A stretch of 64,000 nt of DNA from assembly GCA_903904835.1 (NCBI GenBank), contig CAIVEI010000051.1, forward strand, positions 1 to 64,000, written 5' to 3'. The stretch is from an uncultured Schlesneria sp. Its GTDB lineage: Bacteria; Planctomycetota; Planctomycetia; Planctomycetales; Planctomycetaceae. The translations under genes and the position numbers were made by a program. Positions within the stretch are counted from its first letter, which is position 1. Every line of letters starts with the position of its first letter. A model generated the notes under the pieces. That model was given only the letters and a program-made list of their open reading frames with translations. It was not told the DNA's origin and ran no database searches. This document shows, piece by piece, positions 42,304-44,233 of the stretch.

Positions 42304-43065
42304 ACGGATCTCCCGTTGCCGAATTCAAATCTCGCGCGATGGCCACGGTATTGCTCTTGGCCAGACGCGTCAATCAACAAAACCGAAGTCAATCGATTAT
42401 CAGCCGTGATCGTACAAAGCGACTCGTTCGGCCGGTCGACTTGATTGGCCGGACTTTCTCATCGAAGGTATCGGGTATTCCTCATTTTTCGACATTTCCT
42501 GGCGAACTTTTTTTGCGCGCGAGGGTCTGGTTGGCAAAGCCGGTGACCTTGCTGATCACTGGTGTTAAGTTTCGAAAAAGTTACACGATCAGGTGTTAAA
42601 GATCATGACGGTGTTACCGCCGATGTCCGAGCGCAGTGAGAACGATACGGAGCGGTTTACCATCGGGGTAAACCGCCTGGCAGCTCAGCCATTGTTTCCC
42701 CAGATCCCGCAACAGTTTGCCGGACAATTTTCGGAGATACAGCCGTTGTGCCTGCTGAAAGCCGGGAGACTCGGTCTGCATCGCGCCAATTCCCCGTATC
42801 CCCTGCGCTCGTGACATCGGCCTCAAGCCTCCGCAAGCTCGTACAAGCCCGGTGTCATCTCGATGACGCCGGGCTTATTGCTTGAGCCAGCCGAAATCTG
42901 GCATTTTGTTAACTTGCCGACTTATGGTCCCACTGCATGACCGACTTCGGTTATGCAGTGCTTGTTGAAAGGGACAAGGAGAAGACACTGCTTCTCCGAA
43001 GACTCCGATGCAGTGGCACAGAATATTATGTCGACAGAAGGTGTCGACTTTTTTGCCTCAGGCGT
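42304..43065. other. Palindrome-rich intergenic region
   Basis: A 760-bp gap between the MFS gene and tRNA-His. A hairpin with 14-bp arms lies at 42844-42876 (AAGCCCGGTGTCAT with ATGACGCCGGGCTT). A second near-palindrome CACTGCATGACCGA / TCGGTTATGCAGTG lies at 42931-42960, and the 34-nt dispersed repeat at 42987-43020 follows. A minus-strand frame at 42614-42826 (about 70 residues, ends KPLRIVLTALGHRR) is somewhat protein-like but unsupported. Confidence 0.55.
42931..43020. repeat. Palindromic repeat cluster including 34-nt dispersed repeat, copy 2
   Basis: The first half (42931-42960) is an inverted repeat with 14-bp arms CACTGCATGACCGA/TCGGTTATGCAGTG; the second (42987-43020) is the reverse complement of the repeat at 36622-36655 with two differences. 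Both share the CACTGCAT core, so they belong to one family. Confidence 0.8.
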
Positions 43066-43140
43066 GGTGTTCGTGGTGTAGTGGTCTCTGCACGTCGGTT
43101 TGTGAAACCGAAAGTGACGGTTCAATCCCGTTCGAGCACC
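43066..43140 (+). tRNA. tRNA-His (anticodon GUG)
   Basis: A 75-nt cloverleaf. Acceptor GTGTTCG pairs with CGAGCAC (one G-T wobble); an extra 5' G (43066) pairs with the discriminator C (43140), the hallmark of tRNA-His. The anticodon stem CGGTT/AACCG carries GTG, and the T arm GACGG/CCGTT has loop TTCAATC. CCA is not encoded; five T follow after one base. Confidence 0.95.
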
Positions 43141-43201: not shown

Positions 43202-43858
43202 GTGGTGACGATGTTGAGTCGGCAAACGCTTGTTCTGAATCGGAACTGGCAACCGGTGGGGGTGGCCTCAGTGGCTCGTTCACTGTCGCTGGTTGCGTCG
43301 GAACGGGCGAAGATTGTCGATCCAGCCGACTTCCAGCAGTACACCTGGGCTGACTGGGCCAGGATGATCCCCGAGGGGGATGAACTGTTCATCCAATCGG
43401 TGGCATTTCGAATTCGCGTTCCGGAGGTGATCACGTTGATGGTCTATGACCGTCTTCCTGCAAATGTGGTCACATTCAGTCGACGGAACATCTATAAACG
43501 CGATCGATACTCGTGTCAGTACTGCGGACGGCAAGGTCGCTTTGCCGGAGAAGTTCATCGTGATTCCGAGATCGCAGCCATTCCGCGAAATGGATGTCTC
43601 GGTATTGAAGAAATGACTCTGGATCACGTACTCCCCCGATCGCGTGGTGGGACCAGCACCTGGGAGAACTGTGTGCTGGCGTGCCTGGACTGCAACAAGC
43701 GAAAGGCGAATCGAACGCCGACCGAAGCGCAGATGCCGCTGCGGAAGACACCGGTTCGTCCGACCTGGAAGCCGTTGTATGCTCGGCATGATGTGAGAAT
43801 CGAAAGCTGGTCCAAGTTTCTCAGCGAAGCTTATTGGACTGTGGAACTGGAGTCATAA
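43202..43858 (+). CDS. HNH endonuclease
   Basis: 218 residues, starting at GTG 43202 (ATG 43211 is an equal candidate). The HNH-type zinc site is clear: CQYCG (about 101-105), then the catalytic stretch TLDHVLPRSRGG with His near 140 and WENCVLACLDCNKRK with the second CxxC. The N-terminal 90 residues (LVLNRNWQPVGVASVARSLSL) are the usual lead of this subfamily. Such stand-alone HNH proteins are widespread in bacteria and may act in DNA repair or defence; no restriction or toxin partner is adjacent. tRNA-His lies just upstream. Confidence 0.92.
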   Translation: MVTMLSRQTLVLNRNWQPVGVASVARSLSLVASERAKIVDPADFQQYTWADWARMIPEGDELFIQSVAFRIRVPEVITLMVYDRLPANVVTFSRRNIYKRDRYSCQYCGRQGRFAGEVHRDSEIAAIPRNGCLGIEEMTLDHVLPRSRGGTSTWENCVLACLDCNKRKANRTPTEAQMPLRKTPVRPTWKPLYARHDVRIESWSKFLSEAYWTVELES

Positions 43859-43948
43859 GTCGCGACTGAAGTTTTTCATGCGCGATTGAGGATGAGTTCG
43901 TATTGACGATCGCTCGCGCGTTGACGCCTGGTAATCCACGAGCGATTT

Positions 43949-44019
43949 GTCCTTGAGGTGTGACGGAGGCACGCGACTTTGCGAAGGTCGCAGACCAGGT
44001 TCGACTCCTGGCAAGGACA
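43949..44019 (+). tRNA. tRNA-like element, resembles tRNA-Arg (GCG) with odd core
   Basis: 71 nt. Acceptor GTCCTTG/CAAGGAC (7 of 7), discriminator A, T arm CCAGG-TTCGACT-CCTGG (5 of 5) and D stem GTGT/GCAC are canonical. The anticodon stem CGACT/GGTCG frames TTGCGAA, anticodon GCG (codon CGC, Arg). But position 8 is A rather than universal T, position 14 is G rather than A, the D loop has only 7 nt and the variable loop 4. It may be an unusual or decaying tRNA, or a tRNA-shaped repeat. A palindrome follows 27 nt later. Confidence 0.55.
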
Positions 44020-44046
44020 TTGAGGAACACATGAGTAATGCTGCGT

Positions 44047-44133
44047 GTAAACGTTCACGGGCAATGCCGGGGGACAGCGCCGTTTTTCGCAATCAAAATG
44101 CATCAGTCCCTGCCCTGCCACGTAGACGTTTAC
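44047..44133. repeat. Nested imperfect palindrome next to the tRNA-like element
   Basis: The outer arms GTAAACGT (44047-44054) and ACGTTTAC (44126-44133) pair exactly. Inner segments also pair: CGGGCA with TGCCC and GGGAC with GTCCC. The unit is about 87 nt, the size and form of a REP-like or miniature mobile element. Only one copy is in the window. Confidence 0.55.
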
Positions 44134-44233
44134 TGTTTCAATGTTTCCCGGGCGGATCAGTCCTGTCGTTAAAATCGAGTCTGCTATACTGTCGATCTGC
44201 AGGAATTGACTCGTCATCGGTAAAGGATGTTTC

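Follow-up and report, generated by a model that had tools for sequence, protein, structure and literature searches.

The tRNA-shaped element at 43949-44019 is probably the last gene of a reduced planctomycete tRNA-array operon, led by a leader-peptide attenuator and holding a back-up set of tRNAs. It lies in the window, that is, the whole 64,000-nucleotide stretch of DNA analysed here (uncultured Schlesneria sp.), where it closes a locus made up of a leader ORF with a hairpin (42605-42876), a tRNA-His gene, an HNH endonuclease gene and tRNA-Arg(GCG) itself (Table 1).

Table 1. Features of the locus, with positions counted in the window
Feature	Position	Strand	Basis or remark
Leader ORF, 69 codons from ATG, ending ANSPYPLRS-stop	42605-42814	+	Frame open from 42569; TGA at 42812-42814; translation predicted
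Segment A, the antiterminator half, which overlaps the stop codon of the leader ORF	42811-42820	+	Complementary to B in the aligned leaders
Terminator-type hairpin of segments B (42845-42859) and C (42862-42876), then eroded T-run (ATT)	42845-42876	+	Match to model R2; folds as a hairpin
tRNA-His(GTG), array type	43067-43140	+	Rfam, 55.8 bits
HNH endonuclease of array type, 218 aa	43202-43858	+	Pfam HNH, 4.6e-14; array-HNH clade; dN/dS well below 1
Hairpin between HNH and tRNA-Arg	43909-43946	+	Paired changes keep it in G002; 3' arm weakened in the window copy
tRNA-Arg(GCG)	43949-44019	+	ARAGORN call, Rfam match, family alignment and covariation
Dispersed palindromic repeat, judged outside the operon	44047-44133	.	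Folding, relatives, genome pattern matches

A tRNA-Arg(GCG) gene and its family

Judged from its sequence, 43949-44019 is a true tRNA-Arg(GCG) gene that has kept its stems and its arginine identity bases, with charging and ribosome use of the product putative. An earlier note on this DNA had described well-paired stems, and the cloverleaf is indeed complete (7, 4, 5 and 5 bp); 2 of 200 shuffled sequences folded as well (z -3.1). The covariance scan proposed in that note, run on 381 bases alone, gave an end-to-end match to the Rfam tRNA model RF00005 (positions 1-71 of 71) at 45.4 bits, the cut-off being 29. The gene is absent from the listing of a fast whole-window scan and of a whole-genome RF00005 scan.

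The core of the molecule is unusual. As the note had observed, position 8 is A and position 14 is G, in place of the canonical U8 and A14, and this oddity proved to be a trait of the family: of 94 distinct copies, 93 have G or A at position 8 and 86 have G at position 14. To call the D and variable loops very short was an overstatement: the 7-nt D loop and 4-nt variable loop of this gene are ordinary, the former occurring in 8 and the latter in 17 of 52 distinct tRNA sequences taken from this genome, five of which are of the array type. Arginine tRNAs are recognised by A20, C35 and A or G at the discriminator position 73, all of which are present here. The anticodon GCG, already flagged as unusual for arginine, is confirmed, and a separate tRNA-Arg(ACG) exists; together with the genome's CCG, TCG, TCT and CCT arginine tRNAs, it makes tRNA-Arg(GCG) dispensable for reading CGC and CGU. 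The frame SLPGVEPGLRPSQSR, which the earlier note took to be annotated repeatedly in planctomycetes, is the antisense of this gene.

Is the element a repeat, as was suspected? Inside its own genome it is not: it occurs once, the sole other match being 27 nt long with an E value of 0.15. Across planctomycetes the suspicion holds. A DNA search matched tRNA-Arg(GCG) in 15 of 40 relatives, and a degenerate pattern built from its 3' half retrieved 108 stretches from a one-genome-per-species collection, whose record titles carry genus names that we take to be planctomycete in all cases except one ('bacterium isolate RI_301'). Among the findings that the note had listed as speaking against its own reading, the part that we observed is a single genomic copy with a high covariance score.

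The 94 aligned copies exclude 8 duplicates and 9 pattern matches, three of them at edges (L080, L123, L147) and six with poor acceptor pairing (L089 twice, L104, L111, L138, L150). Standard pairs fill 99.7% of stem cells in this alignment, a figure favoured by the removal of the six poorly paired matches, and 71 cells are doubly changed compared with 16.1 in shuffles, double changes falling in 8 of 21 pairs. The discriminator is A in 79 copies and G in 15, as arginine tRNAs require, and the anticodon, T loop and arginine identity bases are conserved. When the family was turned into a covariance model, 363 of 397 genomes of the class gave a match at E 1e-4; the weak matches are probably ordinary tRNAs, and the best 150 printed matches (all at least 79.5 bits) represent 130 distinct genomes. 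In three stretches (L089:3788-3819, L089:7259-7290 and L138:7948-7979) the Arg(GCG) 3' half is joined to a foreign 5' half, as if recombined.

The same conservation bears on whether the element might instead be a mimic of tRNA with a regulatory role, for example a Y RNA. Its non-canonical 8/14 core would suit a mimic, and the genome has a Ro60-YrlA-RtcB-RtcA stretch as well as a Ro60-like gene downstream of another array fragment. The end-to-end match to the tRNA model and the conserved anticodon, T loop and arginine identity bases argue the other way, as does the lack of any match to YrlA (RF02553) or other Y-RNA models in 43850-44230 at E values up to 10, and we regard a mimic as extremely unlikely. 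The stretch in question (C6:37-4371, locus L186) contains part of a Ro60 gene, two YrlA-type Y RNAs, RtcB and RtcA; the two YrlA matches score 70.2 bits, above the cut-off of 69, and 54.7 bits, below it.

An 87-nt palindromic hairpin does follow 27 nt beyond the tRNA (z -2.9 on this strand, -3.6 on the other), as reported in the note. The proposed tie between the two does not stand: rather than a tRNA-like repeat coupled to a palindrome, we see a tRNA gene that ends a reduced array, next to a separate dispersed repeat. The palindrome is nested, with outer arms common to the same-genus genome G001 and a different interior there, and it is missing beside the same tRNA in G002, also of the genus. 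Its interior gave 7 pattern matches in the genome (up to 3 mismatches) as opposed to none for the reversed control. The palindrome is incidental and separate from the array. Another dispersed copy lies between rtcB and rtcA on contig C6.

tRNA arrays, a reduced tail and protein partners

Relatives of tRNA-Arg(GCG) often stand near the end of large tRNA arrays. Among 109 loci, 58 have at least 8 tRNAs, mostly co-oriented, with a maximum of 43 in 5 kb, and 37 have only one to three. The genes recur in the order Phe-Glu-Pro-Ile-Lys-Ile(UAU)-Lys ... His-[HNH]-Trp-Thr-Arg(CCG)-Arg(TCG)-Arg(GCG)-Cys. Set against this order, the window locus is, on sequence grounds, an array tail without the Trp, Thr and other Arg genes, its last gene being tRNA-Arg(GCG). 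Array units are defined by 20 or more clustered tRNAs; the window locus has two, where relatives reach the 43 just mentioned. It does show what marks a planctomycete array operon, namely a leader with an attenuator, array tRNAs and an HNH gene beside His or Trp. The window tRNA-His is up to 88% identical to array tRNA-His genes (median 65%) and 59% identical to the genome's other tRNA-His, which itself has a median identity of 60% to the array genes. Five more array-type tRNAs (Pro, Ile(GAT), Lys, Ile(TAT) and Gln) lie on contig C21, followed by an acetyltransferase gene and a Ro60-like gene.

Comparison with G001 and G002 shows tRNA-His to be 97-99% identical and its upstream flank 68-90%, and tRNA-Arg to be 87-99% identical and the gap preceding it 58-93%. 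Immediately ahead of tRNA-His, at 43030-43056, the window has a second terminator-like hairpin with six T, which G001 shows in weaker form and G002 does not show. The Arg gene of G002 (L036) has kept its hairpins and anticodon and has lost the GG of the D loop and the TTC of the T loop; ARAGORN made no call of it in that genome. The damaged elbow loops and the missing call count against a tRNA role there.

Could the window locus then be the scraps of a degenerate, horizontally acquired tRNA cluster without present function? The accessible text of a 2016 Porphyra paper reads planctomycete clusters in this way, reporting clusters with tRNA-Ile(UAU) as 'degenerate', partly degraded and dispensable (PMC4807772), and the variable array size, including the many loci with one to three tRNAs, and the damaged Arg gene in G002 would agree with it. 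Arguing against degeneration are identity elements and paired stems kept across the class, purifying selection on the HNH gene in the window lineage and a conserved leader and attenuator, so that we consider this reading unlikely.

Coding capacity and charging signals can be followed through the arrays. In one of them (L143), 42 anticodons suffice for 61 of 61 sense codons under the wobble rules as coded for this analysis, and five other arrays tested read 37 to 57. G3:U70 is present in 54 of 63 array tRNA-Ala and in 13 of 1120 other array tRNAs; C73 is found in 39 of 41 His, U73 in 27 of 28 Cys and G73 in 78 of 83 Ser tRNAs. For most amino acids the commonest array discriminator is that of the genome's own tRNAs, the exceptions being Gln, which misfits (G or A), and Glu and Met, which are less uniform. 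Such kept charging signals argue against the label 'degenerate' for planctomycete clusters. Array tRNA-Leu is shorter than 82 nt in 106 of 129 cases (loci L077-L185, for example L143 and L101) and therefore without a long variable arm. U8 and A14 are kept at 0.86 to 1.00 in most array Leu types; Arg, Ser and Cys types mostly lose U8.

An HNH gene of about 200 aa is present in 21 of the 109 loci. In 11 of these its place is precisely the gap from His to Trp; in 3 others it adjoins Trp, and in 2 others it follows His. The planctomycete array HNH proteins tested (3 fragments under 170 aa left out) fall into a single supported clade of 19 that includes the window protein. Between the window gene and that of G001, dN is 0.002 and dS 0.115; for G002 the values are 0.050 and 0.757. 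By these substitution rates the HNH gene is under purifying selection in the window lineage. Searches of defence and phage libraries gave generic HNH matches, of which the top one, to phrog_16726 (HNH endonuclease; E 2.6e-32), extends over most of the protein and so indicates that phage relatives exist. An AlphaFold model from 16 sequences was unusable (mean pLDDT 37.5).

The array might be the carrier of a selfish HNH homing gene, as mycobacteriophage array HNH genes have been tied to changes in tRNA repertoire in the accessible part of PMC5966550. A parasite of this kind would sit poorly with an HNH gene found in only 21 of 109 loci, in a near-fixed place, from one planctomycete clade and under strong constraint; a family without detectable relatives also takes a similar place in 8 loci. 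We hold the carrier idea to be very improbable. The family in question encodes a 264-aa protein (L183:2335-3159, L143:4872-5660 and six more), one member of which matched nothing in Pfam, NCBIfam, PADLOC or PHROGs.

HNH relatives from other phyla were found on plasmids, where 8 of 18 regions carry arrays of 5 to 28 tRNAs on the same strand within 3.5 kb, and the other 10 have none or one tRNA within that distance; the 18 regions are a non-random draw from listings of 74 and 101 records. These plasmid arrays are in line with a phage-type anti-defence array, brought in by phage or plasmid, whose spare tRNAs would replace those cut by anticodon nucleases, and arrays on mycobacterial plasmids and phages are discussed in such terms in the accessible passages of PMC12803027. 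The planctomycete family speaks for another history: its pattern hit a single contig among 2.9 million viral ones, searches of phage and plasmid records gave no match over 80% of the tRNA-Arg(GCG) gene, and gene order and attenuator are common to many planctomycete genera. An anti-defence origin therefore seems to us quite unlikely here. The planctomycete arrays could nonetheless work in the way proposed for anti-defence arrays, by replacing damaged tRNAs.

Two further protein clusters accompany the arrays, each with one member checked by Pfam. A cluster of slipin (SPFH) type is found in 18 loci, inside the array or behind it, and a Ro60-like cluster (TROVE and vWA) follows the array in 8; this genome's own Ro60-like gene was checked as well. 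A genome-wide Pfam search for TROVE scored in 3 of 26 genomes, a count that says little because it missed this genome's own Ro60-like genes, which hmmscan finds. A general link between arrays and RtcB was rejected: RtcB is present in 25 of 25 array genomes, yet G057 is the only one of them (1 of 25) where it lies no more than 10 kb from an Arg(GCG) match.

The leader and its alternative pairings

Upstream sequence of at least 100 nt was available for 44 of the 58 arrays, many of the loci not reaching the true start of the array. A strong hairpin with a T-run precedes the first tRNA in 27 of the 44, and 26 of these 27 reach a score of at least 14, as opposed to 0 of 174 shuffled controls. We aligned 22 of the 27 leaders (L099, L148, L150, L154 and L174 left out) together with the window. 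Three segments, A (GTGAC...), B (...GTGTCAC) and C (GACAC...), allow two alternative pairings, A:B or B:C. For B:C, 99.6% of cells are paired and 24 are doubly changed (6.9 in shuffles); for A:B the figures are 98.4% and 7 (2.0 in shuffles), with the reservation that both structures were derived from the very sequences tested, so that the percentages are flattered. With energy as the sole measure, the A:B pairing outdoes 95% of shuffled sequences in just 11 of the 27 leaders.

A stop codon (TGA or TAA) falls inside segment A in 23 of 23 rows, closing a frame open for at least 34 codons. The same frame is open for at least 45 codons in 24 of 24 further loci outside the model, some of them close relatives of model rows. 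Counted from its ATG, the window leader shares its length of 69 codons with the leader before the C21 fragment (L236) and with those of relatives L237 and L245. Among 41 distinct leader tails the commonest residues before the last codon are Pro-Leu-Arg, with Pro encoded by four codons and Leu by three; third codon positions are no more variable overall than second ones, so that selection on the leader peptide is only suggested. Most leader starts have no obvious Shine-Dalgarno site. A leader ORF whose stop codon lies in A, followed by mutually exclusive A:B and B:C pairings, looks like the anatomy of a ribosome-mediated attenuator, from which regulation of the array may be surmised.

A model of this leader (R2), built from the 22 array leaders with the window excluded, matched the window at 42799-42879 with 54.7 bits (E 8.8e-12). 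A whole-genome scan at E 1e-4 gave two R2 matches, each preceding array tRNAs: the window locus and C21:50115-50195, which lies directly before the second array fragment and has an intact T-run. R2 matched 96 of 297 genomes in a sample of the class. When the best R2 loci of their genomes were inspected (n = 30, of which 24 lay outside the model), tRNAs stood just downstream on the same strand in 30 of 30, with at least four within 3 kb in 26. Comparing 125 printed attenuator matches with part of the Arg(GCG) list yielded at least 35 pairs within 20 kb, and among the matches listed Arg(GCG) was downstream on the same strand in 35 of 35. The U-run after the terminator hairpin is intact in the aligned array leaders and eroded in the window, G001 and G002; termination may therefore be weak here and this copy leaky. 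For the G002 leader, the predicted best fold is the A:B form.

A sigma-54 (RtcR-like) promoter before the arrays was considered and rejected, as best scores in 33 upstream regions average 15.6, compared with 15.8 in shuffles.

A possible back-up tRNA set and its precedents

What might such an operon do? In its full form it would comprise the leader peptide and attenuator, then up to 43 tRNA genes, presumably co-transcribed, and in some loci a slipin or Ro60-like gene after them; the window locus would have lost all but two of its tRNAs, with five more behind their own attenuator on C21. In healthy cells, a ribosome at the leader stop codon would cover A, allowing B:C to form and ending transcription before the tRNAs. 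Were translation to lag or stall, A would be free to form A:B, and RNA polymerase would read through into the array, releasing a second set of tRNAs chargeable by the host synthetases. Translation stress would thus be the signal in vivo and back-up the role.

Taken at its broadest, this would mean that planctomycetes carry a near-complete second tRNA set (up to 61 codons, with Arg(GCG), Ile(UAU) and mostly short-arm Leu), silenced by an attenuator and released on ribosome stalling, as an emergency translation kit with an embedded HNH nuclease, of which the window would hold a two-tRNA version under selection. We regard this broad reading as evenly balanced between right and wrong. With Arg(GCG) and Ile(UAU) in it, such a set possibly needs neither inosine at position 34 nor lysidine. 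tRNA arrays occur in several phyla, and for the planctomycete ones the conserved attenuator and charging signals make induction by translation inhibitors via the leader testable. Our data also suggest that, instead of being parasites, HNH genes in arrays may be part of a regulated operon.

Ribosome-mediated attenuators and regulatory uORFs include the trp type and antibiotic-sensing leaders. The array leader shares with them a leader ORF followed by three segments that pair in alternation, with the terminator formed by the last; unlike them, it would control a tRNA operon, and its stop codon lies inside the antiterminator half. A literature search that took in few subscription papers returned no paper on a leader or attenuator for tRNA arrays. 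As far as our searches show, tRNA arrays themselves are known and the attenuator heading them is the new part.

The clusters of PMC4807772 are almost certainly the same elements as the arrays described here, being large, from the same phylum and with Ile(UAU) inside. Compared with the accessible part of that description, the present arrays show kept identity elements, a fixed order, an HNH gene, and a leader with an attenuator. Dense tRNA arrays with HNH genes are likewise known from Mycobacterium, according to the passages available of PMC5966550 and PMC12803027; those units differ in being mostly plasmid or phage borne, their suggested role is antidefense, and an attenuator is unmentioned in these passages.

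Relatives of the window HNH protein head tRNA arrays on Nostoc and Kovacikia plasmids, in three of three such regions. Cyanobacteria also provide the nearest experimental precedent, the trn operon of Anabaena PCC 7120, whose induction was reportedly first described in Nucleic Acids Research in 2021. The accessible text of a later account describes 26 tRNAs that form a silent second set, induced by translation-targeting antibiotics and repressed by TrcR, which also controls rtcB, HNH and slipin genes (PMC10272220). As far as that text goes, the two systems differ in tRNA order and in their switch, which is the repressor TrcR in Anabaena, whereas for the planctomycete arrays we propose a cis-acting attenuator.
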